Shown here in pieces: positions 23,618 through 57,533 of a stretch of DNA of 64,000 nt. A program made the position numbers and the translations under genes. Position 1 is the stretch's first letter. Each line of letters opens with the position of its first letter. Origin of the DNA: Terriglobia bacterium (GTDB lineage: Bacteria > Acidobacteriota > Terriglobia > Terriglobales > Acidobacteriaceae); assembly GCA_020073565.1 (NCBI GenBank), contig JAIQEY010000023.1, positions 1 through 64,000 of the forward strand, read 5' to 3'. Below the pieces are notes generated by a model. The model ran no database searches. It had not been told where the DNA came from and was given only the letters and a program-made list of their open reading frames with translations.

Positions 23618-23704
23618 TTCACCACCGAGACACAGAGTCACGGAGAAAGCGATTCTGTTTTTCTAGATTCGGGTTTCTCTGTGACTCTGTGTCTCGGTGG
23701 TGAA
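23618..23704. repeat. Inverted pair of octamer arrays (CTGTGACT word), 31-nt arms
   Basis: The left arm (23618-23648) and right arm (23674-23704) are complementary at 30 of 31 positions around a 25-nt loop. Both arms read in 8-nt steps: CACCACCG, AGACACAG, AGTCACGG on the left, and their complements CTGTGACT, CTGTGTCT, CGGTGGTG on the right. The element starts 11 nt after the last oxidase-operon stop and ends 11 nt before the convergent gene's stop. It could terminate both transcripts, although there is no T-run. The same words recur at 40493-40625. Confidence 0.8.
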
Positions 23705-23715
23705 TTGGGGTTTAT

Positions 23716-24759
23716 TCAGCTCGCCAATCCAGAAACCACTTCGCCCACAAACCCCGCAAACGTTCGCACATCCTCTTCCGTCGTGTCGAACGAGCACATC
23801 CACCGCACCACCGATTCCTCTTCGTTCCACACATAAAAGAAATAGCGTTCCTGAATCTTTTGGATTGCCTCCCGTGGAATCTGCGCAAACACTCCATTGG
23901 CCTCCACCGGATACACAATCTTGACCGGTGGGGTCTTTTTCACTTCCTGCTCCAGCAACCGAGCCATGCGGTTGGCGTGCTCCGCATTCCTCCGCCACAG
24001 ATCGTTTGTCAGCAGCGCCTCCATCTGCACCGCCATGTAGCGCATCTTCGACGCCAGCTGCATCCCCTGCTTGCGGACGTATAAAAACTCCTGCGCTGGT
24101 TCTGGACGAAAGAAGACGACTGCTTCCACGCCCATGAGGCCATTCTTCGTGCCGCCAAATGAAAGCACGTCCACACCCAGATCCCGGGTCGCCTGCCGCA
24201 GCGTGAGCCCCTGTGCCACGACAGCGTTTGAAATGCGCGCCCCATCCACGTGCAGGAACATATTCCGCTCGTGAGCAAACCGGGCTAATGCCTCGATCTC
24301 AGCGGTTTTGTACACTGTTCCCATTTCAGTCGATTGGGTGATGGAAATCACGCGCGGCTGCACGTGATGCTGGTCGCCTATCCCGTGATACGCACGCACC
24401 ACTGTGTCGACTGTCAGCTTGCCCATCGGTGCTTGCAGGGGAATCAGCTTGCACCCCGTAAACTTTTCCGGTGCCCCGCATTCATCCGTATAAATGTGAG
24501 ACAGCTCGGGACAGAGAACTGCGTGATACGGCCGCGCCACAGCCTGCAAACTCAGCACATTCGCTGCCGTCCCATTGAATACGAAAAACACGGCCACGTC
24601 TTGGCCAAAATGCTCCCGGAACTTGGCCACCGCCGATTCCGTGTACGGGTCGTCCCCATACCCCACCACATGCCCCTGGTTTGCGCGCTGGAGTGCGTCC
24701 AACACTTCCGCATGCACCACCGCATTGTTATCGCTCGCAAAGCTTCGGCTCGGTTTCAT
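23716..24759 (-). CDS. ltaE: Low-specificity L-threonine aldolase
   Basis: A 347-residue PLP enzyme of the beta-eliminating lyase/threonine aldolase family. It begins FASDNNAVVHAEVLDAL, followed by GYGDDPYTESAV. The cofactor region has LHVDGARISNAVVAQG, and the Schiff-base lysine lies in SFGGTKNGLMG. It cleaves L-threonine or L-allo-threonine to glycine and acetaldehyde. The start at 24759 (MKPSRSF) is chosen because residues upstream of it are not part of the family. It is convergent with the oxidase operon across the palindrome at 23618-23704. Confidence 0.9.
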   Translation of the reverse strand: MKPSRSFASDNNAVVHAEVLDALQRANQGHVVGYGDDPYTESAVAKFREHFGQDVAVFFVFNGTAANVLSLQAVARPYHAVLCPELSHIYTDECGAPEKFTGCKLIPLQAPMGKLTVDTVVRAYHGIGDQHHVQPRVISITQSTEMGTVYKTAEIEALARFAHERNMFLHVDGARISNAVVAQGLTLRQATRDLGVDVLSFGGTKNGLMGVEAVVFFRPEPAQEFLYVRKQGMQLASKMRYMAVQMEALLTNDLWRRNAEHANRMARLLEQEVKKTPPVKIVYPVEANGVFAQIPREAIQKIQERYFFYVWNEEESVVRWMCSFDTTEEDVRTFAGFVGEVVSGLAS

Positions 24760-24972
24760 AAGCAGACAATCTAGCAGACCTGAAAAGTCTTGGGAGCCCC
24801 GGCCCTTATGCCAAACCAATTATTGTTCTAGTATGGATGCGGACTTATTCTGGGCACAGTCGGTGAAGCCCACACTGCGGGTTGTCAGCCCGTCCAAAGC
24901 CGGCGTGGTGGACCGAGGGATCTGTAGATTGCCGGAAATTAGTCCGGCCCCGGCCGCTGACGAGCAACTCTT

Positions 24973-26097
24973 ATGCCGCCATCCTTAGACCGAACTGTAT
25001 CTACCATCCTCTCGGGCGGGCTCCTGACTGTTTTGATCGCCGGTACGCTCGCCTGCGGCAACGGTAAAACCGCCAACGCCGGCGCCGGAGGCATGCAGGC
25101 CATGCCCGTCCAGGTAAAGACTGCCCACCCTGCCAAGGTCGACGACACCACCGAATATGTCGCCACCTTGAAGTCACGCGCTTCCGCTGTCGTGATGCCG
25201 CAAGTGGAAGGCATCATCACCCAGATTTTCGTTCACTCGGGCGAGCGGGTTGCGGCGGGCGCGCCGCTCATGCAGATTGATCCCGCCAAGCAGCAGGCCA
25301 CCGTCAAAAGCCAGGAAGATGCGCGCGCCGCCCAGGTGGCCCAGGTGAAGTGGGCTCAGCAAAACTACGACCGCATCAGCGGTCTGGCCAGCGCCGGCGT
25401 TGTCAGCAAGCAGGACCTTGACCAGGCCCGGGCCGCGCTCGACGCCGCCCAGGCGCAACTTCATTCCCTCGATGCCCAAGTCAACGAGCAGCAGGTGCAG
25501 TTGCACTACTACAAGGTGGTTGCCCCGCGCGCCGGAATTGTCGGGGACGTCCCAGTCCGCGTCGGCGATCGCGTGACGACCACCACCACGCTGACCACCG
25601 TCGACCGTCCCGGCAGCCTCGAGGCCTACATCTATGTCCCGGTCGAAAAGTCCGCACAGCTGAGGATGAATCTTCCTGTCCAGATCGTCGACGCCACGGG
25701 CGCGCTGCTGGCCTCCAGTCGCATCACCTTCATCTCACCGCAAGTGGACAACACGACGCAAACCGTGCTGGCCAAGGCGCAAATCGCCAATTCCAAGGAC
25801 ACCCTGCGCACCGCCCAGTTCATTCGCGCTCGCGTCATTTGGGGCAGCCACGATCGGCCCGTGGTCCCGGTGGTGGCCGTGTCCAGAATTGGCGGCCTCT
25901 ATTTTGTTTTTGTGGCTGAGTCGGATCAGAAAGGCGGATATGTGGTCCACCAGAAGCCGCTCCAGGTCGGTCAGATTATCGGCAACGACTATGTAGTCCT
26001 TGACGGCATAAAACCCGGAGACAAAGTCGTCGTCTCCGGCACCCAATTTCTCATCGATGGCATACCCGTAGTCCCGCAGGAAACCAGTAGTAGCTAG
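24973..26097 (+). CDS. RND efflux periplasmic adaptor (membrane fusion protein)
   Basis: A 374-residue HlyD/AcrA-family protein. The hydrophobic N-terminus ends LAGTLAC-like before a Gly/Ala linker, so it may be a lipoprotein, though the lipobox is imperfect. The lipoyl half-motifs are at VMPQVEGIITQIFVHSGERV and VVAPRAGIVGDVPVRVGDRV. A coiled-coil hairpin lies between them (about 100-170). A beta-barrel and membrane-proximal domain follow. The RND pump gene comes 128 nt downstream. No outer-membrane TolC partner is present in the window. Confidence 0.9.
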   Translation: MPPSLDRTVSTILSGGLLTVLIAGTLACGNGKTANAGAGGMQAMPVQVKTAHPAKVDDTTEYVATLKSRASAVVMPQVEGIITQIFVHSGERVAAGAPLMQIDPAKQQATVKSQEDARAAQVAQVKWAQQNYDRISGLASAGVVSKQDLDQARAALDAAQAQLHSLDAQVNEQQVQLHYYKVVAPRAGIVGDVPVRVGDRVTTTTTLTTVDRPGSLEAYIYVPVEKSAQLRMNLPVQIVDATGALLASSRITFISPQVDNTTQTVLAKAQIANSKDTLRTAQFIRARVIWGSHDRPVVPVVAVSRIGGLYFVFVAESDQKGGYVVHQKPLQVGQIIGNDYVVLDGIKPGDKVVVSGTQFLIDGIPVVPQETSSS

Positions 26098-26221
26098 TTG
26101 CTGGTTTCTAGTTTCTAGTTGCTTGTTTCTCGCAGGCGATCAGCGAAGACTAGGACTGGAAAACCACAGGCTAGCGACTGCTTCGAAAACTAGGAACCAG
26201 AAACGAGCAACTAGAAACTGC
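26094..26221. repeat. Inverted pair of heptamer arrays (CTAGTTT word), 5+5 units
   Basis: The left array (26094-26128) is exactly five 7-mers: CTAGTTG, CTGGTTT, CTAGTTT, CTAGTTG, CTTGTTT. The right array (26187-26221) is five 7-mers of the complementary word: AAACTAG, GAACCAG, AAACGAG, CAACTAG, AAACTGC. A 58-nt centre separates them. The first unit contains the stop codon of the adaptor gene, and the last ends 4 nt before the ATG of the pump gene. The element therefore fills the intercistronic gap of an operon. Confidence 0.85.
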
Positions 26222-26225
26222 TCTT

Positions 26226-29200
26226 ATGGTTGATTTCTTCATCCATCGCCCCGTGTTCTCGACCGTCTGCGCCCTGCTCATCATTCTAGCCGGCGCCACC
26301 GTCATTCCCACCCTGCCGATCGCTCAGTTCCCCAATCTCGCTCCGCCGCGGGTGGGGGTCACCGCCGTCTATACCGGGGCGAGCGCCCAGACCGTGGAGT
26401 CTGCCGTAACCACGCCGCTCGAGCAGCAGATTAACGGCGCCGAGGGGATGACCTACATCACCTCCTCCAGCACCAACGACGGCATTAGTTCCATCACCGC
26501 CACCTTTGCCCTTTCGCGCGACCCTGACCTCGCTTCTGTCGATATACAGAATCGCGTCAACACCGCTCAGGGTCGCCTCCCCAACGCGGTCAAGCAAATC
26601 GGCGTCACGGTCGCCAAGAGTTCGCAGAACTTTGTCTTCGGCGCTGCCGTCTATTCCCCCGACGGGCGCTACTCCACGTTCTTCATGAGCAACTACCTCG
26701 ACGTCTACGTCCGCGACACCCTCAAGCGCGTGCCGGGCGTAGCGGACGTTCTGATCTTTGGCGAGCGCCGATATTCCATGCGTCTTTGGCTCGATCCCGC
26801 CCGCATGGCCGCCCGCGCCCTCACCGCCGATGACGTCGTCAATGCCCTGCAGGAACAGAACGTCGAAGTCGCCGCCGGACAGGTCGGTTCACAGCCCGCT
26901 ATCCCCGGCCAGCAATTCCAGATCAGTGTTCGCGCCGTGGGCCGTCTCTCCGAGGCCACGCAGTTTGAAAACATCATTCTCAAGAGCAATGCGGACGGCA
27001 CGCTTGTCCGCCTGCGCGATGTCGGCCGCGCGGAACTCGGCGCGGAAAACTACGGCTCCAACCTCATGTACAACGGGCATGAATCAGTCGGCCTCGGCAT
27101 TACTCAGCTCTCCACCGCCAATGCCCTCGATGTCGATCGCCGCTGCATCGCCGAGCTCGAGCGCTTGTCCAAGCGCTTCCCGCCGGGCATGAGATATGAA
27201 CTCGCCTTCGATACCACTGACGCCGTCGGCGAATCCATTCGCGATGTGGTCTCTACGCTGGGCCAAGCCATTTTCTTGGTCATCCTCGTGATCTTCATTT
27301 TCCTCGAAGACTGGCGCTCCACCATCATTCCCTCGGTTACTATCCCGGTCTCGCTCATTGGAACCTTCGCCTTCGTCAAACTGCTTGGCTTCTCCGTCAA
27401 CACGCTGACCTTGTTCGGCATCACGCTGGCGACAGGTCTGGTCGTCGACGACGCCATCGTCGTCATTGAAAACATCGAGCGCCACCTGCAGGAAGGCGAG
27501 CCCAACCCGACCAAGGCTGCCTCCGACGCCATGAAGGAAGTGACGGGCGCCGTGATCGCTACTTCGCTGGTGCTGGTTGCTGTCTTCGTTCCAGTGGCCT
27601 TTTTCCCCGGCACAACCGGAATTCTCTTCCGGCAGTTCGCGCTGACCATCGCCTTCTCGATCACGATCTCGGCCTTCAACGCGCTGACCTTGACCCCGTC
27701 ACTCTCCGCGCTCCTGCTGGGACGCACGCACGGCGAGAAAAGCTGGTTCTTCAAGCGGGTTGATCGCGCGATCAGCGCAGTGACGAACGGCTACGTCCGC
27801 GCTCTGCGCACTTTCCTGCGCTTTGAGGCTGTGGCACTCGTCCTGTTCGTCGCCGGACTGGGCCTTGCCTATTTCGTTTTTCAGCGCGTCCCCAAGGGAT
27901 TCGTTCCCAACGAAGATCAGGGATATCTCATCGCCATCATCCAGGCCCCTTCCGGTGCTTCGCTTGAATACACCAAGAAGATCGGCGAGCAGATCACTGC
28001 TATCACCAAGAATTTCCCGGAGATCGGAGGCACCTTTGCCGTCTCCGGTTTCAGCTTCACCGGCACCGCTGCCAATCGCGGTCTGGTTTTCTTGCCGTTG
28101 AAGCCCTACTCCCAGCGTGTGGGAAAGGAGCACACCGCATCCGCCGTCCTGCATCGTCTGTTCATGCCTCTGGTCAGTATTCCCGGAGCCATCGTGATTC
28201 CTGTTGAGCCGCCTGCCGTTCAAGGTTTGGGTGCATTCGGCGGATTCCAGTTCCAGGTGCAGGACCAGGCGAACCACACTCTTCAGGATCTCGACAAAGT
28301 CACGCACGACATGATCCGACAGGGAACTGCCGGCAAGGATCTGGTCGGCTTGTTCACGTCCTACACCGCCAGCGATCCCCAGTTCGTGGTCACCATCGAT
28401 CGCGAAAAGGCTAAGAGCTTGCACGTCCCGCTCAGCCAAATTACCGACACGCTCGGCGTCTACATGGGTTCGGCTTACATCAACGACTTCGACTTCAATA
28501 ACCGCTCCTATCGCGTCTACGTCCAGGCCGACAAACAGTTCCGCTCCCATCCGCAGGACATCAAGCAGTTCTACGTGCGTTCGGATTCCGGGGCCATGGT
28601 GCCGCTCGAAAATCTGCTCAGCATCAGCGAGACCGCGGCACCGCAGGTCATCAGCCACTACAATCTTTTCCGCTCCACGGAAATTGATGGTTCCCCCGCG
28701 CCCGGTTTCAGCTCCGGACAGGCCATCGATACCATGCAACGCCTGGCCGCCAAGGTGCTGCCCCAGGGCTACAACTATGAGTGGTCTGGAATCTCGCTCG
28801 AAGAATTGCAGTCCGGAAGCACCACCCTGATCCTGTTCGGACTCGGAACCCTCGTGGTCTACCTGACTCTCTCCGCACAGTACGAGAGCTTCGTGCTGCC
28901 GTTCATCATTCTGCTCGCGGTGCCTATGGCCTTGCTCGGGGCTCTCTCTGCCCAATGGATCCGCGGACAGCAGAACGACGTCTACTGCCAGGTCGGACTC
29001 GTCATGCTTGTCGGACTCGCCTCCAAGAACGCCATCTTGATCGTGGAATTCGCAGAGCAACTGCGCGAGCGCGGTTTGACAATCGTGGATGCCGCTGTCG
29101 AAGCTGCCCGCATCCGGCTACGCCCGATTCTCATGACTTCGTTCGCCTTCATCCTCGGAGTTGTACCGCTGGTTACTGCCAGGGGCGCCGGGGAAAACGG

Positions 29201-29333: not shown

Positions 29334-29340
29334 ATCCCGT

Positions 29341-31221: not shown

Positions 31222-31234
31222 GAGCTTTCGTGGG

Positions 31235-31263: not shown

Positions 31264-31265
31264 CC

Positions 31266-40492: not shown

Positions 40493-40625
40493 TCACCACA
40501 GAGACACAGACAAGACTGTTCAATACTTTTGATTTGTTTTTCTTGATTTCCTCTGTGACTCTGTGACTCTGTGACTCTGTGACTCTGTGACTCTGTGACT
40601 CTGTGTCTCTGTGTCTCTGTGGTGA
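40493..40625. repeat. Octamer array (CTGTGACT x6 plus variants) with inverted partner
   Basis: The right part (40553-40624) is nine 8-mers in perfect register: CTGTGACT six times, CTGTGTCT twice, CTGTGGTG once. The left part (40494-40509) is CACCACAG and AGACACAG, the exact complements of the last units. This gives an 18-bp stem (40493-40510 with 40608-40625). It lies between cysM (8 nt after its stop) and mec (14 nt before its ATG). It uses the same word as 23618-23704. Confidence 0.9.
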
Positions 40626-40639
40626 AATAGCGCTTTCTC

Positions 40640-42858: not shown

Positions 42859-44031
42859 ATGGCCACGCTCCCTGATGTCAAACCCGTCGAAGCCGTTCTA
42901 AGTAACGACGAAATCCTGCGCTACTCGCGCCACCTGATCATGCCCGAAGTCGGCATGGAAGGGCAGCAGAAGTTGAAGGCCGCGAAAGTGCTGTGCATCG
43001 GCGCGGGCGGCCTGGGATCGCCGCTCGCACTCTACCTGGGGGCCGCGGGCGTGGGCACGCTGGGCATCGTGGACTTCGACGTGGTCGACTACACGAACCT
43101 GCAGCGCCAGATTATCCATACCACCGACGATGTGGGCCGCAAGAAACTCGACTCGGCCGCCGACAAGCTGAAAGCGATCAACCCGTTTCTAAACCTGCGG
43201 TTGTTCGAAACGAAACTCACCAGCGCGAATGCGCTCGAATTGTTCCGCGAGTTCGACATCATCGCCGACGGCACTGACAACTTCCCCACGCGCTATCTGG
43301 TCAACGACGCCTGCGTGCTCACCGGCAAACCCAATGTTTACGGCTCGATCTTCCGCTTCGAAGGACAGGCGAGCGTGTTCGCTACCGAGGAAGGCCCGTG
43401 CTACCGCTGCCTGTATCCTGAGCCGCCACCGCCCGGACTGGTTCCTTCCTGCGCGGAAGGTGGAGTGCTCGGGATTCTGCCCGGATTGGTGGGCGTGATC
43501 CAGGCGACCGAAACCATCAAGCTGATTCTCGGCGTGGGCGATTCGCTCGCTGGACGTCTGCTGTTGGTCGACGCGCTCGGCATGAAGTTCCGCGAACTCA
43601 AACTGCGCAAGAACCCCGATTGCCCAGCTTGCGGCAAGAACCGCACGATTACCAAGCTGATCGACTACGAGGAGTTCTGCGGGATCCGGGGCCAGGAAGA
43701 GCCGGCTGGAAATGACGTGCCGGCGATCTCAGTGGAAGAATTGAAAAAAAAGTTAGACGCGAAGGCCGACATCTTCGTTCTCGACGTACGCGAGCCGCAC
43801 GAATATCAGATCTGTAACCTGAAGGGATATCTCATCCCGGTGGGCGACCTGCCGAAGCGTGTGAATGAACTCGATTCCAGCCGCGAGATCATCGCGCATT
43901 GCCGCTCCGGCGTGCGCAGCGCGAAGGCTGTGAACTTCCTGCGGCGGTCGGGATTCAAGAAGGTCTACAATCTGACCGGCGGCATTCTAGCCTGGGCGGA
44001 TCGGGTCGATCCGACGATGCCGAAGTACTAA
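42859..44031 (+). CDS. MoeB/ThiF adenylyltransferase fused to a rhodanese domain (MoeZR type)
   Basis: A 390-residue protein. The E1-like domain (about 10-265) has the nucleotide loop CIGAGGLGSPLALYLGAAGV, DFDVVDYTNLQRQ, ADGTDNFPTRYLVND, and zinc Cys pairs CYRC and CPAC. The rhodanese domain (about 285-390) has DVREPHEYQI and the catalytic Cys in IAHCRSGVRSAKA. It adenylates a carrier's C-terminal Gly-Gly and transfers sulfur to it. M. tuberculosis MoeZ does this for CysO. It could also serve MoaD. Confidence 0.92.
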   Translation: MATLPDVKPVEAVLSNDEILRYSRHLIMPEVGMEGQQKLKAAKVLCIGAGGLGSPLALYLGAAGVGTLGIVDFDVVDYTNLQRQIIHTTDDVGRKKLDSAADKLKAINPFLNLRLFETKLTSANALELFREFDIIADGTDNFPTRYLVNDACVLTGKPNVYGSIFRFEGQASVFATEEGPCYRCLYPEPPPPGLVPSCAEGGVLGILPGLVGVIQATETIKLILGVGDSLAGRLLLVDALGMKFRELKLRKNPDCPACGKNRTITKLIDYEEFCGIRGQEEPAGNDVPAISVEELKKKLDAKADIFVLDVREPHEYQICNLKGYLIPVGDLPKRVNELDSSREIIAHCRSGVRSAKAVNFLRRSGFKKVYNLTGGILAWADRVDPTMPKY

Positions 44032-44033
44032 AA

Positions 44034-44054
44034 GGCAGGTGTCAGGTCTCAGGT
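44034..44054 (+). repeat. Heptamer array (GTCAGGT word), single arm, 3 units
   Basis: GGCAGGT, GTCAGGT, CTCAGGT in strict 7-nt register, starting 3 nt after the stop of the MoeB-like gene. There is no inverted partner; a terminator hairpin follows. The same word occurs in the paired array at 49788-49843. Confidence 0.7.
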
Positions 44055-44056
44055 TT

Positions 44057-44082
44057 GGAGGGAGCGCTTGGGCGCTCCCTTT
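44057..44082 (+). terminator. Intrinsic terminator after the MoeB-like gene
   Basis: AGGGAGCGC (44059-44067), loop TTGG, GCGCTCCCT (44072-44080), then a short T-run. The stem is a perfect 9 bp. Confidence 0.75.
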
Positions 44083-45990: not shown

Positions 45991-46130
45991 GCGGACAGTC
46001 TAGCAGTCTGCGGGCCGCTCGGTTGACGCTAAGAAAGTTGTCACCCTCGACCGGCTCCGAGCATCTATAATGGCGTTCTAGTTTCCGACCCTCGCTGCCT
46101 GGGAAGCCGTGGCGGCGCGGGCGAGGGGAT

Positions 46131-46151
46131 GCCGGCGAGACGCCGGCGCTA
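46131..46151. repeat. GTAGCG-type hairpin, inverted copy
   Basis: GCCGGCG (46131-46137), AGA, CGCCGGC (46141-46147), then GCTAC. On the minus strand this reads GTAGCGCCGGCGTCTCGCCG, the same element as at 31266-31287. It lies in the 290-bp gap ahead of moaA. Confidence 0.7.
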
Positions 46152-46245
46152 CCCGAGGGTGCCGGTGGAAACGCCTGCGCCTCCCGTGTTTGGAAAGGAA
46201 ACGCGCGCCGGTTGATTCCCGCCTGTGTTTTCTTTCCTGCAACCA

Positions 46246-46314
46246 GTCGTTGGTCGTTCGTCGCTGGTCGTTGGCGCGGCGATGCCCAGCGACGAACGAC
46301 TGCCGACCAACGAC
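46246..46314. repeat. Inverted pair of heptamer arrays (GTCGTTG word), 4+4 units, overlapping the moaA start
   Basis: The left array (46246-46273) is GTCGTTG, GTCGTTC, GTCGCTG, GTCGTTG. The right array (46287-46314) is CAGCGAC, GAACGAC, TGCCGAC, CAACGAC, the complementary word. Both are exactly 28 nt, around a 13-nt loop that contains the likely moaA ATG (46282). If that start is right, the right array encodes residues 2-12 of MoaA. Confidence 0.88.
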
Positions 46315-47304
46315 TTGCTGCTTACTGACAAATTCGGGCGCTCAATTCACGATCTGCGGATCTCGATTACGGACCGCTGCAACTACCGTTGTGTCTACTG
46401 TCGCACGGGGACGAATGGCGCGGCGTTCGCGGAGCTTCCGTTCGAAGATTATCTGCGGATGGCGCGGATCCTGGTCTCGATGGGAATCACGAAGGTTCGT
46501 CTGACGGGAGGCGAGCCTCTGCTGCGCAAAGGGATTGTGCAGTTCATCCGCGATCTTTCGAAGCTGCGCACAGTGAAGGGTGAGAAGCCCGCGATTGCTT
46601 TGACCACCAACGGCCATCTGCTGGCCGAGATTGCTCAATCGTTGAAAGATGCTGGGCTGGACCGCGTGACCGTCAGTATGGATGCCGTCGATCCCGACCG
46701 ATTCGCCCGCATCACGCGTGTGCCGAACGGATATGACAGCGTGCTCGCCGGGGTGCGCGCATCGCGGCGGGCCGGGCTCGATCCCGTGAAAGTCAACTGC
46801 GTGTTGCTGCGCGGGTTCAACGAAGACCAGATCATTCCCTTTGGGGTGTTCTCGCGCGAAGAAGGCGTGGTAGTGCGGTTCATCGAATTCATGCCACTCG
46901 AAGAGGACCGCGTGTGGACACCACAGACGGTGGTAACGCTCGATGAAGTCGTTGCGCGCATGTCGGAATATCTGCCACTGACGGAGATTGCGCGCGAACA
47001 CAGCGAGACGGCGCGGCGCTATCGTTTTCCCGATGGTATAGGCGAGATCGGAATCATCGCTCCGGTATCGCATCCATTCTGCGGACATTGCAGCCGGATT
47101 CGGATTACGTCGGATGGCAAACTGCGTACCTGCCTGTTTTCCGCGTGGGATCATGATCTGTACGAATTGATGCGACGCGGCGCCTCCGACGAAAAACTCG
47201 CGGAATTCATCGTGAAGGTCGTGGAGAAGAAGGAAGAGCGCCACCACATCGGAGAACCGGGATTCGTGCCAGCGTCGCGGACGATGGTGCATATCGGGGG
47301 GTAG
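46282..47304 (+). CDS. moaA: GTP 3',8-cyclase, molybdenum cofactor step 1
   Basis: A 340-residue radical-SAM enzyme. The SAM cluster is DRCNYRCVYCRTG (C-x3-C-x2-C), with RLTGGEPLLRKG nearby. The second 4Fe-4S cluster at the C-terminus is FCGHCSRIR and LRTCLFS. It ends TMVHIGG with the usual double Gly tail. The start is uncertain. ATG 46282 gives a family-typical length, but it lies in the loop of a palindromic array and has no ribosome site. An in-frame start at 46225 would read through the left array. Its product is needed by the molybdopterin enzyme MsrP encoded at 57.5 kb. Confidence 0.92.
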   Translation: MPSDERLPTNDLLLTDKFGRSIHDLRISITDRCNYRCVYCRTGTNGAAFAELPFEDYLRMARILVSMGITKVRLTGGEPLLRKGIVQFIRDLSKLRTVKGEKPAIALTTNGHLLAEIAQSLKDAGLDRVTVSMDAVDPDRFARITRVPNGYDSVLAGVRASRRAGLDPVKVNCVLLRGFNEDQIIPFGVFSREEGVVVRFIEFMPLEEDRVWTPQTVVTLDEVVARMSEYLPLTEIAREHSETARRYRFPDGIGEIGIIAPVSHPFCGHCSRIRITSDGKLRTCLFSAWDHDLYELMRRGASDEKLAEFIVKVVEKKEERHHIGEPGFVPASRTMVHIGG

Positions 47305-47315
47305 GGCTCTCCCTC

Positions 47316-47385
47316 GTGTACCTTTGTGTCCTTAGTGGTTAAACGAAGTCCAACCACTAAGGACACGAAGAACCACGAAGGACAC
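47316..47385. repeat. Inverted repeat of the CACGAAGGACAC type between moaA and the next gene
   Basis: GTGTCCTTAGTGGTT (47326-47340) and AACCACTAAGGACAC (47352-47366) form a perfect 15-bp stem with an 11-nt loop. Flanking variants of the same words (GTACCTTT on the left; CACGAAGAAC, CACGAAGGA, CACC on the right) extend it to 47316 and 47385 in 9-10-nt steps. It begins 12 nt after the moaA stop and ends 2 nt before the ATG of the next gene. Confidence 0.8.
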
Positions 47386-47387
47386 CA

Positions 47388-48230
47388 ATGTTCACTTCGG
47401 ATTCTGCTGGCCGGCTTGGCCTTCTTATTTCCGTATGTTTCGTGTTTTTCGTCGCGGATGCCTTGGGCGCGGATCGACTTTCCGGGTTCTTGGGTTTTGA
47501 CCGCAACGACTACCCCGGCGACACCAACCTTAATGAACTTCACAAGACCTTTGCTTGCACCGGCTACTGGTTGAATAACCCGCCCGGCGCAAAGACGAAT
47601 ACCTGGGCGGGAAAGCGCCGCAAACTTGAGGCTGCCGGATTCGGATTTCTTGTGCTCTTCAACGGGCGGCTGTATCGGGAATTGCGATCGCACGCGGCCG
47701 AGCTTGGAAAGTCGGACGCACAAGCGGCGGTCGCGGCCGCCAGGCGCGAGGGGTTTCCGGCGCAGACCATTATTTTTCTCGATCAGGAAGAGGGCGGACG
47801 GTTGCTGCCAGAACAGAAGGCATACCTGTTCGCGTGGGTCGACGGAGTCAGCCAGTCGGGGTTTCGCGCGGGCGTGTATTGTTCGGGGATCGCGGCTCAG
47901 GAGAAGACTGGCGCCAGCGTGATCACCGCTGACGACATACGGCAGAACGCGGGCACGCGACCCATTACCTACTGGGTAACGAATGACGCTTGTCCGCCAT
48001 CGCCCGGATGCACGGTTTCGCAACGTCCACCTGCGCCTAGTGAAAGTGGAGTCGCGTTTGCGGATGTCTGGCAGTTCGCGCAGTCGCCGAAGAGAAAGGA
48101 CGTTGCGGCGAGCTGCAAAGGGTATCACGCGGATGGAAGTTGCTACGTTCCGGGCGGCGTTGACCAGCGGATGCACCTTGATTTGAATGCTGCGACTTCA
48201 TTTGACCCTTCGCATGGGCGGACGCGCTGA
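47388..48230 (+). CDS. Secreted DUF1906 (Rv2525c-like) glycoside-hydrolase-fold protein
   Basis: A 280-residue protein with a signal peptide (about 1-27, ending ALGAD). The mature part begins GFLGFDRNDYPGDTNLNEL and contains FACTGYWLNNPP, TIIFLDQEEGGRLLPEQ, FRAGVYCSGI and a late DVWQFAQSPK. This is the TIM-barrel-like DUF1906 family, related in fold to GH25 lysozymes and often thought to act on the cell envelope. Enzymatic activity is unproven. No ribosome site is visible, because the palindrome occupies the space before the ATG. Confidence 0.78.
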   Translation: MFTSDSAGRLGLLISVCFVFFVADALGADRLSGFLGFDRNDYPGDTNLNELHKTFACTGYWLNNPPGAKTNTWAGKRRKLEAAGFGFLVLFNGRLYRELRSHAAELGKSDAQAAVAAARREGFPAQTIIFLDQEEGGRLLPEQKAYLFAWVDGVSQSGFRAGVYCSGIAAQEKTGASVITADDIRQNAGTRPITYWVTNDACPPSPGCTVSQRPPAPSESGVAFADVWQFAQSPKRKDVAASCKGYHADGSCYVPGGVDQRMHLDLNAATSFDPSHGRTR

Positions 48231-48353
48231 CTCGCTGGGCTTGCTGGAGGGAGTAGGGGGCCCTTCGGCTACGCTCAGGGCAGACTCTTCGACTCCGAAG
48301 GACGATTCGCTTCGCTCTTCGTCCTGCTCCGATCAGAATGACAGAATATAAAG

Positions 48354-48399
48354 AACTGGGAACTGAGGACCGGGAACTGAGAACTCTACTAAGAACTCA
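48354..48399. repeat. Heptamer array (AACTGAG word), 4 units
   Basis: AACTGGG, AACTGAG, GACCGGG, AACTGAG (48354-48381) in 7-nt register, then a partial inverted copy, AACTCAG (48394-48400). The inverted part overlaps the stop codon of the minus-strand gene. Just upstream (48260-48350) is a run of other repeat phrases, including CCTTCGGCTACGCTCAGGGC. Confidence 0.7.
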
Positions 48400-49768: not shown

Positions 49769-49787
49769 CAGCGTGACGGCCTCACCG

Positions 49788-49843
49788 GGTCTCAGGTGCT
49801 AGGTCTCAGGGAAAAACTCGGGTTCCTGACACCTGACACTAGG
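49788..49843. repeat. Inverted pair of heptamer arrays (GTCAGGT/AGGTCTC word), 3+3 units
   Basis: The left array (49788-49808) is GGTCTCA, GGTGCTA, GGTCTCA. The right array (49823-49843) is TTCCTGA, CACCTGA, CACTAGG, roughly its complement. Both are exactly 21 nt, with a 14-nt centre. The array forms the boundary where panE coding homology stops. Confidence 0.72.
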
Positions 49844-49950
49844 ATTTCAGGCGGCGATTATACCCTCCCGGTTTGTGTTTTCAGGATGGCGGGCGTATAG
49901 TTAGACCTGAAAACTGTTGTGTCGTAGTCTCAGGATTGTCGAAGCACACC

Positions 49951-49973: not shown

Positions 49974-49990
49974 GTTGGACTGAGATCGGC

Positions 49991-50542
49991 ATGGCGGTAT
50001 GGGCGCAAGTTATTGAAAACATGGTCCTTGATCAGGACAAAGTCCGTCAGATTGCCGAGCGTGTGGCGGGCTCGAGCGGACTGGAAGTGGTCGATGTCGA
50101 GTTGCTCGGCGCGGGCAAGCATCGCATGCTGCGCGTCTTCATCGACCGGCCGGGGGCGGTGCCGACGCCACAGCATCCGGACGGCGTGACGCACGAAGAC
50201 TGCGCGAATTTCAGCCGCGAGTTCGGCACGATCGTCGAGGTCGAAGACGCGGTGCCGGGCGGATCGTATGTGCTGGAGGTTTCGTCTCCGGGACTCGATC
50301 GCAAGCTGACCAAGGCGGCGGATTTTGAGCGCTTCCGCGGACATCGCATGAAGCTGATGACACGCGAGCCGGTCAATAACAACCGGCACTTTGAAGGCAA
50401 GCTGGAAAGTTTCGAGAACGGGAAGTTGTTGCTCGACCTGAGTGCAGCGCGCCGGAAGATGCGTCCGAAGGAAGGCGAAGCGCCGAAGGTTGAGATTGAG
50501 TTCAGGAACGTAGAGAAGGCGAATCTGGTTCCGGAAATTTGA
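49991..50542 (+). CDS. rimP: Ribosome maturation factor RimP
   Basis: A 183-residue protein. The N-terminal alpha/beta domain has IAERVAGSSGLEVVDVELLG and MLRVFIDRPGAV, and the conserved centre is SYVLEVSSPGLDRKL. The C-terminal SH3-like domain ends VEIEFRNVEKANLVPEI. It binds the 30S subunit and assists its maturation. The ATG at 49991 is chosen because earlier in-frame starts lie in the leader hairpin. An ATG at 50021 is also possible. It is the first gene of the rimP-nusA-infB operon. Confidence 0.92.
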   Translation: MAVWAQVIENMVLDQDKVRQIAERVAGSSGLEVVDVELLGAGKHRMLRVFIDRPGAVPTPQHPDGVTHEDCANFSREFGTIVEVEDAVPGGSYVLEVSSPGLDRKLTKAADFERFRGHRMKLMTREPVNNNRHFEGKLESFENGKLLLDLSAARRKMRPKEGEAPKVEIEFRNVEKANLVPEI

Positions 50543-50544
50543 AA

Positions 50545-50632
50545 GTTTCAAGGTTTCAAAGTTTCAGCGTTTCAAGGTGGCATGAATTCCCTGAAACCTT
50601 GCAACCTTGAAACCTCGCAACCTGGAATTCAT
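50545..50632. repeat. Inverted pair of octamer arrays (GTTTCAAG word), 4+4 units, between rimP and nusA
   Basis: The left array (50545-50576) is GTTTCAAG, GTTTCAAA, GTTTCAGC, GTTTCAAG. The right array (50590-50621) is CCTGAAAC, CTTGCAAC, CTTGAAAC, CTCGCAAC. Both are exactly 32 nt. A second perfect palindrome frames the right array: ATGAATTCC (50582-50590) and GGAATTCAT (50624-50632). The element starts 3 nt after the rimP stop and ends directly at the nusA ATG. Confidence 0.92.
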
Positions 50633-52096: not shown

Positions 52097-52097
52097 A

Positions 52098-52186
52098 TCT
52101 AGGCTCTAGGCTTTAGGCCTTCGATGCTGATGGCGCATTAGGCCTAGAGCCTAAAGCCCAAAGCCTAGAGCCCAAAGCCTAGAGCC
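52098..52186. repeat. Inverted heptamer arrays (GGCTCTA word), 3+7 units, between nusA and infB
   Basis: The left array is TAGGCTC, TAGGCTT, TAGGCCT (52100-52120). The right array (52138-52186) is exactly seven 7-mers: TTAGGCC, TAGAGCC, TAAAGCC, CAAAGCC, TAGAGCC, CAAAGCC, TAGAGCC. It begins within 4 nt of the nusA stop and ends 65 nt before infB. The unequal arms permit several alternative stems. Confidence 0.9.
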
Positions 52187-52251
52187 GAGACTGAGTCCGT
52201 GAGGTTAGATATGCGAACTTAGCGGGACAGACAAAGGAAACGAGAGAGCGG

Positions 52252-55149
52252 ATGAGCAAGGTTCGAATCAACGATCTGGCCAGGGAACTCGAAGTCAAGA
52301 GCAAAGCGATTCTTGACGTCCTGCCCATTGTGGGCGTGACCGAGAAGAAGACGCACTCCAGTTCACTGGAAGAGCACGAAGCGGAGCTAGTCCGCAAGCA
52401 TCTGCGAGCGCGCTCCGATGCAGCCCCGGCATCGGCGAGGACTTCACGAGCCGCTCACGGCGAAGACGAGATCAAGACCAAGATCGACCTGTCGCACATT
52501 TCCCGTCCGGGCGATGTTTTGCGTGCGATCACACAGCAAAAGGAAGCAATCGAACACCCGCCAGCAAGGCCCGTGGTCAAGCCTCAAGTTCCCCCGCCGC
52601 CTGCGGTCGAGGCGAAGGCAGAGACGCCCGCTCCACCCGCTCCGGTCAAGCCCGCGCCTCTGAAGCCAGTGGTTGAGCCGCCGCCTCCGAGGCTAGTGAC
52701 ACCCGCGTCGGTCGCCGCACAACGGCCACCCGCGGTGGTTGTGATTCCGCCAAAGCCGCCGGTCGCACCGCCACCCGCCGCCGCGCCACCTGTTGCCAGT
52801 GCAGCTCCGCCGGCGGTTGCAGTTCCGCCGCGGGCGACAATTCCAGCACCACCCGCGGTAACTCCGCCCGCTGCGCCGCTGCCCGATCAGGGCGCGCAGA
52901 TGCAAGCAGCGGCGCCCTCGAAACCAGCGACTCCGGTCGCTCCGCCTCCACGGGTCATCATGCCGCAGACGGGACCGCGTCCGGTCTACAAGGCGCCGGT
53001 TTCGGCACCGGGAGCTCCTACCCGTCCAACTCCAGGGCGGCCCGTGCCCGGGCAGCCAATTTTTCAGCGTACGCGCCCACAGGCGTCTTCGGCACCGGGA
53101 GCGCGTCCACCTCTGCGGCCTGGTGAGCGGCGTCCGATGCATCCGACGCGGCAATCACCGGCGGGAGCGCGTCCGCTGGGCGTAGGTCCGGGAGCAGGCG
53201 CGATGCCTCCGCCAGGACCAACGCGTCCGGGAAGCCGCCCAGGCGCTCCAGCCCGCCGTCCGGGACAGCGTTACGTTCCTCGGGGTGTGAAGGAAGGCCC
53301 GATGAAGGGCTATACTCCCCCTCCCCGGGTCACGATTTCCAATGAACCGCTGCCGATCACGCGGAATATCACCATCACCGAAGGAATTTCGGTCAAAGAT
53401 CTGGCGGAGAAGCTGGGCCTTCGCGCCAAGGATCTGATTGCGCGGCTGCTGCTGCGCGGCGTGTTCGCGACCATCAACCAAACGCTCGACGCGGAACTTG
53501 CCACTGAGATGGCGCGTTTCTTCGGCGCCGACACCGAGGTCATCACATTCGAAGAGCAGGCCGCGAAGGAGATCACTGAGGCCACCGAGAGCAGCGAGGA
53601 AGGTGCGGAGGCCGGCACGCGGCCTCCGGTGGTCACGATCATGGGCCATGTCGATCATGGGAAGACGACTCTGCTGGACTCCATCCGCTCCACCGATGTC
53701 GCTGGCGGCGAGGCAGGCGGAATTACGCAGCACATCGGCGCCTATAAAGTCCGCATTTCGGATACCGCGTCTCCTGCGTATGGACGCGAGATCGTATTCC
53801 TGGATACGCCGGGTCACGAAGCGTTCACGCGCATGCGCGCCCGCGGCGCGAAAGCGACCGACATTGTTGTGCTGGTGGTCGCTGCGGATGACGGCGTGAT
53901 GCCGCAGACGATTGAGGCGATTGATCACGCGCACGCTGCGGAAGTGCCGATCATCGTGGCCGTCAACAAAATCGACAAGCCCGAAGCGATGCCGGATCGG
54001 GTCAAGAAGCAACTGGCGGATCGCGGGCTGATGCCGGAAGACTGGGGCGGCACGACCGTGTTCGTCGATGTCTCGGCAAAAAAGAAAACCAATCTGAACC
54101 TGCTGATGGAAATGATCTGCCTGACGGCCGATCTTCAGGAATTGAAGGCTGTGCCCACACGCGCGGCCAGTGGCGTGGTTCTGGAAGCAAAGCTCGATCG
54201 CGGGCGTGGCCCGGTCGGCACGATCCTGGTACAAAACGGTACGCTGCACACGGGCGACAATTTTGTTGTGGGCAATGTGTACGGCAAGGTGCGCGCTATG
54301 TTCGACGATCGCGGGCAGCAGTTGCACGAAGCACCGCCTTCGACGCCGGTTGAAATCCTGGGACTCGAAGGACTGCCGCAGGCGGGCGACCAGTTTGTGG
54401 TGGTGACGGACCGCGAAAAAGCACGCGACATTTCGGAATACCGCGAGCAGAAGGCGCGTGAAGCCGCGCTGGCCAAGAGCTCCCGCGTTTCACTGGAAGG
54501 CCTGGCGGAGCAGCTGAAGACCGCGGGTATCAAGGAATTGAACGTCATCCTCAAGGCGGACGTGCAGGGCTCCGTCGAAGTGCTGGGCGACCTGCTGGCC
54601 AAGCTTTCCAACGACAAGGTGCGGCTGAAGCTGCTGCGGTCGGGGATCGGCGCGATTACCGAAACCGACGTGCTGCTGGCCTCGGCATCGAATGCCATCA
54701 TCATCGGCTTCAACGTGCGCCCCGAGCGCAAGGCGCAGGAACTGGCCGAGCAGGACAAGGTCGACATCCGCCTGCACTCGATCATTTACGAACTGCAGGA
54801 CGAGATCAAACGCGCCATGAGCGGCCTGCTCGAACCGACCATCAAGGAAACCTACCAGGGCCGCGCCGAGGTGCTCGAAACCTTCCGCATTCCCAAGGTT
54901 GGGACGGTGGCCGGATGCCGCGTCACCGACGGCCACATCAAACGCGATGCCGAAGTGCGGCTGCTGCGCGACAACGTGGTTGTGTTCAAAGGGAAGATCG
55001 CGTCGCTGCGCCGCTTCAAGGACGATGCCGCGGAAGTTCGGAATGGGATGGAGTGCGGCATCTCGATCGCGAACTACGGCGATATCAAGATTGGCGACGT
55101 GATTGAAGCGTTCGTCACCGAGAAGATCGCCGCGGAAGTGATGGCATAA
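52252..55149 (+). CDS. infB: Translation initiation factor IF-2
   Basis: A 965-residue GTPase that positions fMet-tRNA on the 30S subunit. The first IF2_N helix bundle starts [20 protein letters not shown] very long Pro/Ala-rich linker (about 80-350) follows, then a second IF2_N segment ([20 protein letters not shown]). The GTPase domain has GHVDHGKT (465-472), DTPGHE (518-523) and NKID (572-575). Domains II-IV end in [14 protein letters not shown]. The linker is larger than in most phyla. GAGAGAG lies before the ATG. Confidence 0.96.
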
Positions 55150-55178
55150 AACAAAACGCCGGGTGAAGGCACCCGGCG
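55150..55178 (-). terminator. Intrinsic terminator between convergent infB and the repeat lipoprotein gene
   Basis: CGCCGGGTG (55157-55165), loop AAGG, CACCCGGCG (55170-55178). Read on the minus strand it is followed by TTTTGTTTT, so it is best placed to end the minus-strand lipoprotein transcript. The 9-bp stem could also act weakly on infB. Confidence 0.8.
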
Positions 55179-55203
55179 CTCCATCTTCACTGACCACTTG
55201 GTC

Positions 55204-56724
55204 CTACGGCCCCGTTTGTACCGTGAACGCGCCGCCGATATCCACTCCTGTGTCTGCCTGCAGCATATAACCAGAGTTGTTCGAAACCAGGTAGAGAATC
55301 AAGCCGCTTGAAAGGCCGTTTACGTTAGCCGTGGCTCGACCGCTGGCATCGATGGCGTAGGTTCCAGAGAAACCGTTGTTGAGGGTTGAGGAACCCAGCG
55401 GCGGCGAGGACGGGAGAAATCCGCTGGCAACATAGTTGGTGGTGACCGACCCGGAACCATTCGGAATCCAAGTACCGACGCGATCCCGGTAGGGGAGTTG
55501 TTGGTTGGCGTCGAATCCATCCATGACAAATGCGTACTGTCCATTCATACTGCTGTCGGAGAACCCCGACCCTGTCTGCTTGTCGAGCGTTCCATCCTCC
55601 ACGTTCACGGGATCGTTAACCAGGAAATAGGCTCGCGAGGAACTAACCAGCCACATGACTTTCTCATTCGTGATTCCCGAGGAAAGGTTCAACGTCACCA
55701 CCGCCCGCCCGGCGGAATCTACGGAGTAGGCGCTTCCTGAGTTCAGAGAAATGTTCGTGACCGGGTTCCCATCCTGCACGGTGTCAAAGGTTCCAGTAGT
55801 GATATTTCCCGCGCCGTCAGCAGCGAACATCCCGACCGAGTGAACGCCATCGACGTTGGTGCTTTCGCCCGAACTGCCGAAAACATACGTGCCGTTGAGA
55901 GAGGCCGCGGAGAAACCGCTTCCAGTCTGCGCTTCCGCCTGTCCAATGGCGAGGGACGCAGTAGCCGTGGTGTTGAGGAAACGGAGTTTCCCCGCACTCA
56001 CGACATAATAGTCATAGGTGGACGTTCCCGTGCTATCCGTGATGGTCATGGTGCCGCGGCCGCTTGTGGTGTTTGGAGCGGTTGCTGAACCGGTGATGTT
56101 GACGCCCGTAGAAAGTGCTCCTCCGATCAGGACGTCTTCGGTTCCGGTAATCTGTCCGGCGTTAAAAGTCAGGATTCCGACCTTGGAGCTTCCTTGCACC
56201 AAGTCGTGAGTCTGGGATACGAAGGTGCCTGAGGGCACGCTTGCAAAAGAAGCGGCATTTTGCATCTCGCCGGAGCCGCCGCTGGTAGCGAATCCATCGT
56301 CCTCTTCCATGTAGAAATGGCTGTCGTCGCTGAGCGTGATGCGGAACTGGGTAAACAAGCCGTTCGAAAAATTGAACTGCACGTCACCAGTGCCGTCCTT
56401 ATTGATTCGGTAAACGCCTGTAATGTTGTCCGAGAATGATTGGAAGTCCTGGACGAAATCGTCGGTGACAGCCGTCAGATTGCCGTTTCCGTCAGCCGTG
56501 AACACACCGGCCTCGACAAAGTAGAACGAATTTATATTGTCCGGAGTGCCAATCCCTCGCAGGGTGAACGCGTACTGCCCTTTGAGGCTGGCATCACTGA
56601 AATTGCCATTGATGGGCACGATGTGTACGCTGTCGCCACAGCCAACGGCTGTAAGGAGGACTGCTATCGCCACCAGTGTCATGGCCAGGCGCGGGGCACA
56701 CTGCTTCCAAGCGAGGGGGTTCAT
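55204..56724 (-). CDS. Lipoprotein with about four repeated beta-rich modules
   Basis: A 506-residue protein. AGGAG lies 8 nt before the ATG at 56724. A lipobox-like LLTAVGC (Cys near 29) marks a lipoprotein. About four modules of 100-130 residues repeat the pattern S-x-S-L-x-G-x-Y-A-F, then a F-x-A-D-G-x-G-N-x-T turn and a late Y-x-V-S-x-x-R/K strand: SDASLKGQYAF, FSAASLNGTYVF and FSDSSMNGQYAF mark three starts. Such proteins are common and often expanded in Acidobacteria (from memory). A surface or adhesion role is a guess. Confidence 0.75.
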   Translation of the reverse strand: MNPLAWKQCAPRLAMTLVAIAVLLTAVGCGDSVHIVPINGNFSDASLKGQYAFTLRGIGTPDNINSFYFVEAGVFTADGNGNLTAVTDDFVQDFQSFSDNITGVYRINKDGTGDVQFNFSNGLFTQFRITLSDDSHFYMEEDDGFATSGGSGEMQNAASFASVPSGTFVSQTHDLVQGSSKVGILTFNAGQITGTEDVLIGGALSTGVNITGSATAPNTTSGRGTMTITDSTGTSTYDYYVVSAGKLRFLNTTATASLAIGQAEAQTGSGFSAASLNGTYVFGSSGESTNVDGVHSVGMFAADGAGNITTGTFDTVQDGNPVTNISLNSGSAYSVDSAGRAVVTLNLSSGITNEKVMWLVSSSRAYFLVNDPVNVEDGTLDKQTGSGFSDSSMNGQYAFVMDGFDANQQLPYRDRVGTWIPNGSGSVTTNYVASGFLPSSPPLGSSTLNNGFSGTYAIDASGRATANVNGLSSGLILYLVSNNSGYMLQADTGVDIGGAFTVQTGP

Positions 56725-56808
56725 GGGACACACTCCTGTCATTTCCTATGATGCTCTAACCCTGATTCTAGAGGAAAGTTCCACAAGAAACTTAGTGGAG
56801 GGTGCAGT

Positions 56809-57444
56809 CTAGGTTTCGGTTACTTCGGCGGGGCGCGCCTGTGCCGGAACGGAATTCTTGTGCACGCCCGCTACCCACATAACAACGCGATACAGCAGTA
56901 ACAGGCTGAGCGCGAACGCGTATTCCAGAGGTTTCCGCAGATCCGCTTTCACCAGCCAGATGTAGTGGATCACACCGAGGATCCCGGTCAGATAGATCAG
57001 ACGATGGAGGCGCTGCCAGTTCTTGCCTCCGAGTCTGCGGACCCATCCGGCGGTCGAGGTCAGAGCGAGTGGAATCAGCAGGACGAAGGCGGAGAACCCC
57101 ACGGTGATGAAAGGGCGCTTGGCGATGTCTTTGATCATTTCATGCAGGCCAAAGAACTTGTCGAGCCAGATGTAGGTTGTGAAGTGCAACACGCCGTAGA
57201 AAAATGCGAACAAGCCGATCATGCGGCGGACGCCGATCAGCCAGTACTGGCGGGTGATACGGCGCAGTGGCGTGATCGAAAGGGTCACGAGAACCAGGAT
57301 CAGGGTCCAGTCGCCGGTCGAGTGCGTGATGACCTCGATGGGATTGGCGCCGAGGCCGTCATGCAGGGCTTTCCAGCCGAGGCGGCCGAGGGGAACGAGA
57401 CATCCGAGGAAGATGAAAATTTTCGTTAATCGTAAACGGTTCAT
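56809..57444 (-). CDS. msrQ: MsrQ, heme-binding membrane subunit of the MsrPQ system
   Basis: A 211-residue protein with six hydrophobic helices of the ferric-reductase-like family. Heme-ligand His residues appear in GVLHFTTYIWLDKF, WQRLHRLIYLTGILGVIHY and ITHSTGDWTL. It passes electrons from the quinone pool or flavin to MsrP, which repairs oxidised methionine in periplasmic proteins. The start at 57444 (MNRLRLTK) avoids the 25-residue extension encoded by the repeat array upstream. msrP is immediately upstream. Confidence 0.9.
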   Translation of the reverse strand: MNRLRLTKIFIFLGCLVPLGRLGWKALHDGLGANPIEVITHSTGDWTLILVLVTLSITPLRRITRQYWLIGVRRMIGLFAFFYGVLHFTTYIWLDKFFGLHEMIKDIAKRPFITVGFSAFVLLIPLALTSTAGWVRRLGGKNWQRLHRLIYLTGILGVIHYIWLVKADLRKPLEYAFALSLLLLYRVVMWVAGVHKNSVPAQARPAEVTET

Positions 57445-57454
57445 GAGATTCCGA

Positions 57455-57533
57455 CTGCAGAGGTCAGATTGCAGAAGTGAAAGCGCGCGCTCTTGCAGCC
57501 ACGGGTTCCACCTCTGCAATCTGACCTCTGCAA
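57455..57533. repeat. Inverted pair of heptamer arrays (TTGCAGA/GGTCAGA words), 3+3 units, between msrP and msrQ
   Basis: The right array (57513-57533) is TCTGCAA, TCTGACC, TCTGCAA. The left array (57455-57475) is CTGCAGA, GGTCAGA, TTGCAGA. Each is 21 nt and they are complementary except at the ends, around a 37-nt centre. In the direction of transcription it starts 5 nt after the msrP stop and ends 10 nt before the msrQ ATG. Confidence 0.85.

Follow-up and report, generated by a model that had tools for sequence, protein, structure and literature searches.

Intergenic palindromes of phased 7- and 8-nt words in Candidatus Sulfotelmatobacter-like acidobacteria keep their architecture while the word changes at an orthologous site

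A 64,000-nt stretch of contig JAIQEY010000023.1 (hereafter the window), from a Candidatus Sulfotelmatobacter-like acidobacterium belonging to a group of uncultured soil bacteria, carries intergenic palindromes whose arms are tandem arrays of a 7- or 8-nt word. We found that this class exists in most sampled congeners, that its architecture is kept at one well-studied site, the gap between rimP and nusA, and that the word present there tracks the genome-wide pool; about a dozen words are common to the elements of one genome. Our preferred interpretation, to which we give a little less than an even chance, is that these are dispersed intergenic palindromes under genome-wide concerted word evolution, by a mechanism that we infer. 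With similar reserve we take the class to be defined by architecture and not by sequence, each element having a pair of inverted arms with some four units of 7 or 8 nt apiece, a private loop, and a position directly behind stop codons. Because the architecture is kept while the word turns over, such a class is easily missed by sequence-based repeat finders.

We scanned for self-matches at lags 3-30. In the window, at a threshold of 17 of 21 positions, lag 7 and lag 8 each gave 3 matches, whereas ten simulations under an order-3 Markov model averaged 0.0. A 457-kb sample (the window and 20 further stretches, all of one genome), scanned at 16/21, yielded 37 arrays at lag 7 and 16 at lag 8, against 0 and 1 in an order-4 Markov sequence, which upholds the periodicity noticed in a sequence-only reading of the window. 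Lags 4, 5, 9, 10 and 11 gave 0-3 and lag 6 gave 7, while multiples of 7 and 8 (lags 14, 15, 16 and 21) were likewise raised. At 15/21, 597 kb of the same genome held 63 lag-7 and 28 lag-8 arrays; by scaling, several hundred arrays per genome would be expected. Neighbouring like arrays in this genome are inverted 22 times and direct 3 times. The 457 kb contain 44 inverted repeats of 24-nt arms in which 19 or more positions pair, and 27 of these have their best lag at 7 or 8; in 359 kb of window and congeneric DNA the phase occurs in 30 of 74 inverted repeats, against 0 of 26 simulated. Lag-7 arrays reach a density of 127 per Mb where NusA likeness is at least 82%, and 104, 20 and 28 in more distant groups, simulated sequence giving 0-3 matches per lag and group. 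Most genomes compared are metagenome-assembled, and the window genome has an estimated contamination of 6%, so that chance, assembly artefact or compositional bias deserves mention; with a near-zero simulated expectation, recurrence in many independent assemblies, and a rimP-nusA gap in the isolate Bryocella elongata (L183, word AGAGTAG) that passes both shuffle tests described below, we consider it a negligible explanation.

The sequence-only reading had described a common architecture with differing words, and had proposed comparing orthologous gaps to see words turn over. Between congeners both ideas hold at the rimP-nusA gap, where words have changed and the architecture is kept. With the identity of rimP and nusA confirmed by Pfam, 19 genomes of the genus had a readable gap, and a phased palindrome lies between the rimP stop and the nusA start in 18 of them; the exception, G021, has a gap of 29 nt without the palindrome. 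All 18 passed a lag-7/8 shuffle test (p ≤ 0.01), and 17 passed an inverted-repeat shuffle test (p ≤ 0.02), the remaining one being the window's own gap (0.03). Writing O1 for GTTTCAAG, H8 for AGGTSTC and H3 for AGTTCTC, we distinguished six words at this site by eye: O1 and H8 in six genomes each, H3 in three, CAGTTGC in G018, a GTCGCT type in G016 and an AGTAGTC type in G010. A wider set (NusA at least 82%) comprised 43 distinct gaps, four of them shorter than 50 nt; among the 39 that were testable, 31 passed at lag 7/8, 27 passed for the inverted repeat and 26 passed both. This set and other genera add more words, among them ATTGGGTA, AGCTCTT and AGACGTC; both tests were passed at L090, L091, L093, L183 and L193, and neither at L161.

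Four other gaps were compared by eye. At 40493, a phased palindrome is present in five of seven readable congeners, with the window's word in one; at 46246, in seven of ten (one single-armed, and G004's 1570-nt gap not included), with the window's word in two; at 57450, in three of six, with TTTGTAA words in G017 and G001 and the window's word in none; and at 52097, in one of 14 (G007, with another word), again without the window's word.

The words at these sites belong to a shared lexicon. In the 597 kb of the window's genome, arrays fell into nine heptamer and three octamer clusters with at least two members, and ten and two single-member clusters, respectively. The recurring heptamer types are AGTTTCT, AGGCTCT, AGTTCTC, CTGCGAG, CTAGCTA, TAGTCAG, GGTCGCT, AGGTCCC and CAGTTGC; the octamer clusters are GTTTCAAG and two CTGTGACT-like ones. 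The proposal that each locus has its own private word therefore fails, since words recur genome-wide: GTTTCAAGGTTTCAA, allowing one mismatch, has 65 matches in this genome against 2 for the reversed pattern. The sequence-only reading had itself named a result that would refute it, arrays that prove to be copies of a few conserved repeat families. This is partly so, in that the lexicon is shared genome-wide, yet the word differs at orthologous sites. Of 24 congeneric genomes, 22 contain O1, 21 contain H8 and 23 contain H3. The reversed patterns of H8 and H3 had no match in any of them; the control for O1 is unclean, since that pattern reversed is similar to the complement of the array. G021 is poor in words (O1 1, H8 0 and H3 0 matches). 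A survey of 297 genomes from the phylum found the GTTTCAAG pattern in three: that of the window, G107, which belongs to the same family, and G196, where 2 matches stand against 1 in the control. Fifteen words in 5'-arm polarity, hand-picked from elements seen in own and related DNA, have a mean rotation-free distance of 3.02; random flips gave 3.30, with none of 4000 as low, and shuffled letters 3.34 (p 0.0005). Such likeness fits words related by descent, or words under a common constraint. Stop codons as a rule within units had weak support (13 of the 15 words have them, against 9.6 shuffled; p 0.05), and the rule was dropped.

We next asked how the word at rimP-nusA relates to this pool. 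Among 16 genomes with O1, H8 or an H3-like word at the site, that word is also the commonest of the three, the only ones counted, in 13, where chance would give 5.3 (p 0.0002); on average it makes up a share of 0.50, against 0.32 (p 0.0015). With own-site matches removed, 12 of 16 remain (p 0.0005), and permutation confined to two main clades, a division of our own, left both the count (p 0.005) and the share (p 0.001) significant. The site word is not the commonest in G005, G020 and G023, nor in G019 once own matches are removed. The test left aside G016 and G010, whose words are others, G021, which has no word there, and five genomes in which the gap was not readable.

Arrays lie in 3 of 63 divergent gaps, 31 of 200 co-directional and 11 of 67 convergent gaps (42 of 267 non-divergent), by gene calls from a greedy open reading frame (ORF) rule that is approximate and contains errors and that left 28 of 91 arrays unplaced. 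The median distance to a stop codon is 1 nt, and it is at most 15 nt in 31 of 39 cases, in a count in which 9 of 41 elements were assigned to divergent gaps through errors of that rule; since the element nearly fills many gaps, their shortness accounts for part of this closeness. When the RNA of nine window loci was folded in silico, z lay between -12.1 and -3.1 for eight; the ninth, at 49788, folds weakly (z -1.3, with 21 of 200 shuffles folding equally well). Another reading has RNA hairpins selected for at gene ends and words drifting site by site through slippage and compensatory change, without exchange between sites, and it would account for this folding and 3'-end placement, for occupancy of the rimP-nusA gap in 18 of 19 congeners, and for heptamer arms being alike within an element. 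It would not explain why the same words sit at many sites and why the site word follows the genome's pool, and the hairpin is dispensable, as the 29-nt gap of G021 and the 9-nt rimP-nusA gap of L122 attest. We regard this account as improbable.

When the words at rimP-nusA are sorted into four groups, with G018 placed in that of H3 and G010 and G021 left out of them, a NusA tree requires eight changes, against a minimum of three; this is no better than for shuffled labels, 78 of 200 labellings being as low. The sister genomes G000 and G017 (support 100/100) have different words. To the left and to the right of the gap, over 60 and over 150 nt, each of the two has the other as its closest match (0.93-0.95), although at 60 nt G001 equals G017 in likeness to the right flank of G000. 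The swap therefore looks limited to the element, and introgression of the whole gap is rejected for this pair on the same flanks. G001 and G020 are another pair with unlike words, at 93.6% likeness over 1000 nt of nusA. In G020 the closest left flank (150 nt) belongs to G018 and G002 and the closest right flank (150 nt) to G019 and G001; since none of these four has G020's word, no donor of an introgressed gap was found here either. Loops at this site that share a word scored 10.31 against 8.37 shuffled. A change of word in situ with the loop kept received little support from the loop test, and we retain it only for two mosaics recognised by eye: G018, which has an outer AGTTCTC unit in a CAGTTGC array, and G004, with an inner GGTCTCAGG in an AGTTCTC array. 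A further hybrid element, at L025 458-519, has one arm of AGTTCTC and one of AGTAGTC with matching unit-specific variants. The mosaics and the hybrid favour partial rewriting.

By word match we found two-armed elements in own and congeneric DNA, 28 of period 7 and 17 of period 8, with a mean detected arm length of 34-38 nt and, in GTTTCAAG elements, mostly 3-5 units per arm. The equal number of units per arm claimed from the window is a tendency only, since arm lengths correlate at 0.13 (period 7) and 0.31 (period 8) and the arms at 40493 are very unequal. A word could be assigned in 43 of 45 two-armed elements and lay on the 5' side in 43 of 43 (25 of 25 in a pattern-based count); because the reference orientation of words came from such elements, this polarity attests consistency within families only. 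Units within an arm are homogeneous: position 3 is uniformly G or uniformly T in 39 of 41 [AG]G[GT]T chains, whereas independence of the units would predict about 10. In 137 O1 units the core letters GTTTCA are 89-97% conserved and positions 7-8 vary, mainly between A and G. The 18 two-armed GTTTCAAG elements share their word, yet the order of units and the loop vary from one to another. Heptamer arms are more alike within an element (0.804) than between elements (0.732; 18 elements, p 0.005), and therefore arm-to-arm copying or pairing selection may act there. A G+C-rich inverted repeat was seen by eye inside two loops (L009 and L028).

Concerted word evolution could proceed as follows. Replication slippage by one unit would homogenise units within an arm, and template switching within the hairpin, together with ectopic exchange between many look-alike arms, may spread words while keeping their polarity. 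Lack of a recognisable SbcCD palindrome nuclease may allow the hairpins to persist, and purifying selection would confine them to transcribed 3' ends, possibly with a role as mRNA hairpins. SbcCD of Escherichia coli cleaves long palindromes. SbcD (TIGR00619) was above cut-off in none of the 24 genomes (SbcC was not searched), and in control genomes it was above cut-off in 8 of 14, with some match in 13. Two divergent SbcD-like metallophosphoesterases were seen, on G021:C29 (L207 2604-3497) and G004:C51 (L208 1-3998); in G004 the gene is followed by a 996-aa Rad50-like ATPase frame, and the strongest SbcD-like match of the genus belongs to hairpin-poor G021.

Several points weigh against this scheme. 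Five congeners have weak SbcD matches, and 6 of the 14 controls fall below cut-off too; the SbcD-like proteins of G021 and G004, also sub-cut-off, came from contigs of about 4.6 kb, when the proteins of two of five stretches were scanned; and because no genome passes, hairpin-poor G021 included, the SbcD result does not discriminate. The NusA tree is poorly resolved, with 2 of 16 inner branches starred. Loops at rimP-nusA with different words scored 8.02 against 7.46 shuffled (p 0.0025, but small), and AGGTCTC against AGTTCTC loops gave no significant likeness (p 0.35); since loops mostly change with the word, replacement of the whole element fits as well as conversion of arms. O1 arms are no more alike within an element (0.790) than between elements (0.800; 18 elements, permutation p 0.83), and a second set of 15 octamer elements likewise gave no within-element excess (p 0.68). 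Finally, the scheme leaves the first origin of a hairpin at a new site unexplained, an exchange between AGGTCTC (7) and GTTTCAAG (8) needs very little homology, and word changes are known from comparison between species alone, none within a species.

Replacement of whole elements is what a non-autonomous element would bring about, similar to a REPIN (a doublet of repetitive extragenic palindromic, or REP, sequences) or a miniature inverted-repeat transposable element (MITE), if each word were a family moved in trans by a transposase targeting hairpins or gene ends, new copies replacing old. The inverted arms, less conserved spacer and element-limited swaps recall REPINs as presented in parts of PMC3116915, and loops usually differ when words differ. 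Insertion beside an older element would yield the three-armed GTCGTTG array recognised by eye at L018 19706-19860, which has two 5' arms and one 3' arm, and G000 has nine Y1_Tnp matches. However, no lag-7/8 array at 15/21 lies within 3.0-3.3 kb of any of these nine, and Y1_Tnp has no match in array-rich G012 (83% complete) or in G013 (71% complete). Octamer arms are independent, and loops of the same word in one genome are almost unrelated (O1 in G000, 10.69 against 10.28 shuffled, p 0.03; 17 of 18 elements, one being dropped when the rule gave no loop). Mobilisation by REP-associated tyrosine transposases (RAYTs) was rejected because no arrays adjoin Y1_Tnp loci. We think a moved element rather unlikely.

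A telomerase-like enzyme that writes words, adding 7- or 8-nt units from short templates to 3' ends at paired nicks or breaks, would build arms independently around host DNA. This would suit the consistent inward polarity, the independent octamer arms, the private loops and a genome-specific word pool matching the word at the site. Heptamer arms, however, are not independent, and RVT_1 at E ≤ 0.001 had no match in 10 of 24 genomes, including array-rich G007 and G022 (each 98% complete) and G004 (100% complete), for which reason we set such a writer aside as a candidate; we rate the idea as very improbable. A snap-back origin of both arms was likewise unsupported by arm likeness for octamers, and heptamers still allow it. 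The suggestion that a process makes the hairpins de novo thus stands in part: a process rather than one mobile sequence seems at work, but simple snap-back is unsupported for octamers.

The word's association with its pool, its inward polarity and the uniformity of units still lead us to concerted word evolution as the preferred, if tentative, interpretation. A stronger version, which we consider doubtful, makes the 7-8-nt word itself the replicating unit: words would invade and rewrite existing hairpins, and competing word populations would sweep standing sites.

Within the window, the sequence-only reading had listed phased loci; phased arrays that have an inverted partner were confirmed at 26094 (AGTTTCT), 46246 (GTCGTTG), 50545 (GTTTCAAG), 52097 (AGGCTCT), 23618 and 40493 (CTGTGACT). 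The octamer palindrome at 23618..23703 (ACAGAGTC/CTGTGACT) was identified by reading and arm comparison, has near-perfect arms and a folding z of -12.1; it belongs to a CACCACAGAGACACAGAG family (window 23618, L018 11720, L085 6014 and L063 14311) with an ordered arm sequence, closer to an ordinary repeat family than the other words. The lag scan gave the heptamer palindrome at 26088..26220 (AGTTTCT, CTAGTTT; z -5.3), which lies in the gap between HlyD-type and AcrB-type genes and overlaps the stop codon of the upstream gene, the CTGTGACT octamer array at 40493..40628 (5' arm short, 3' arm long; z -4.3) and the AGGCTCT palindrome of the nusA-infB gap at 52097..52190 (z -5.8). Two further arrays were seen as single arms, for which no partner was searched: AGGTCTC at 44029..44061 (+ strand), at the end of ORF 42859-44031, and AGTTCTC (GAGAACT) at 48352..48385 (- strand). 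The GTTTCAAG octamer palindrome at 50541..50626 (reading; z -3.1) fills the gap between the Pfam-confirmed rimP and nusA.

The GTCGTTG palindrome at 46242..46316 (reading; z -5.6) sits between a molybdenum cofactor (Moco) riboswitch, RF01055 (60.4 bits, 46069-46216), directly 5' of it, and a moaA-like gene; its 3' arm may lie inside the first codons and encode the MoaA N-terminus. At the gathering threshold, Rfam matched only a tRNA and this riboswitch in the whole window, and no family matched the arrays. Three loci fared less well. That at 47316 is a strong hairpin of CCTTTGTGTCC type (47312..47388; reading, z -8.4), but lacks the 7/8-nt phase; CCTTCGTGTCC-type hairpins spaced near 10 nt occur here (47312-47388), at L010 418-494 and at L026 18676-18754 and 3442-3518. 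The locus at 57455 is a palindrome (57450..57536; reading, z -8.5), but two heptamers, AGGTCAG and ATTGCAG, alternate where a one-word array had been proposed, and that at 49788 is a degenerate, weak AGGTCTC palindrome 5' of rimP (49784..49855; reading, z -1.3) for which phasing failed; both stay below even 14/21 at lag 7 or 8.

Short tandemly repeated repetitive sequences (STRRs) are short direct tandem arrays of 7-nt units of one word, largely intergenic. The sequence-only reading knew no named parallel to the architecture, but a one-word version has been described in Xanthomonas. In the parts of PMC4692102 that we compared, GGGAATC heptamers form 186 and 183 arrays in two species, most often of four units, with 70 and 75 convergent pairs; these arrays are transcribed and lie in intergenic DNA close to the upstream gene, seldom where the neighbouring genes diverge. 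Most occupy the space between the same two genes in both species, varying in length and sequence, and their function is given as unknown. Like them, our elements have 7-nt units with some variable positions, form paired convergent arrays of about four units, and are intergenic, near the upstream gene and rare in divergent gaps by our approximate gene rule. Unlike that one G-rich word, about a dozen words interchange here without G-tracts, plus octamers: only one of the 12 recurring clusters has CCC/GGG in its lead consensus (CCCAGGT), the others lacking a G-tract of three, so a single G-quadruplex-capable word of the Xanthomonas type was not found. Replacement of the word at an orthologous site, following the genome's pool, does not appear in those parts of PMC4692102. 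The architecture, then, is already known for one word; a multi-word lexicon is not described in those parts either, and of word turnover at a site we found no description in the literature searched, with limited coverage of subscription journals.

Other systems are less close. TAACTGA repeats of Beggiatoaceae and cyanobacteria (parts of PMC4679880) and GGGGA(C/T)T of Nostoc (parts of PMC4692102) share 7-nt, largely intergenic tandem units; each is one word, mainly in direct arrays, with one inverted case and few pairs, respectively. REPs, bacterial interspersed mosaic elements and REPINs resemble our elements in forming many intergenic inverted repeats per genome, with hairpins, a variable spacer and avoidance of divergent gaps, but our arms are arrays of 7/8-nt units with many words per genome and private loops (compared with parts of PMC3116915). 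The sequence-only reading had set the palindromes apart from REP families, and rightly: REPINs are sequence families beside RAYTs according to the same parts of PMC3116915, whereas 0 of 9 Y1_Tnp loci have arrays here, and no conserved 20-40-nt family emerged, GTTTCAAG copies differing in unit order and loop. Acidobacterial transposases are named in the REP section of PMC3733652, and REP counts for Granulicella are given in PMC12306157, in whose available text "tandem" and "heptam" are absent. Like MITEs, the elements have two inverted ends, are non-coding and have many copies; unlike in them, no shared interior was found, the 17 of 18 GTTTCAAG loops compared being barely above shuffles. Mutation by template switching where a palindrome is imperfect has been reported for E. 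coli and for yeast (parts of PMC7202029 and PMC3820800). Such quasipalindrome mutagenesis would correct and copy the arms of an imperfect hairpin, but is a one-site mechanism that alone does not spread a word between sites.

In their word pool these elements offer a natural experiment on how dispersed short repeats evolve in concert, and they would provide a comparative setting for the unexplained Xanthomonas repeats. They bear on how a cell tolerates many palindromes with arms of at least 30 nt, and on the role of a hairpin behind the stop codon in an operon such as rimP-nusA-infB. If the word is the replicating unit, it would be a selfish or homogenising sequence class smaller than any mobile element known to us; should words move from site to site, selfish DNA may come in units as short as 7 nt.

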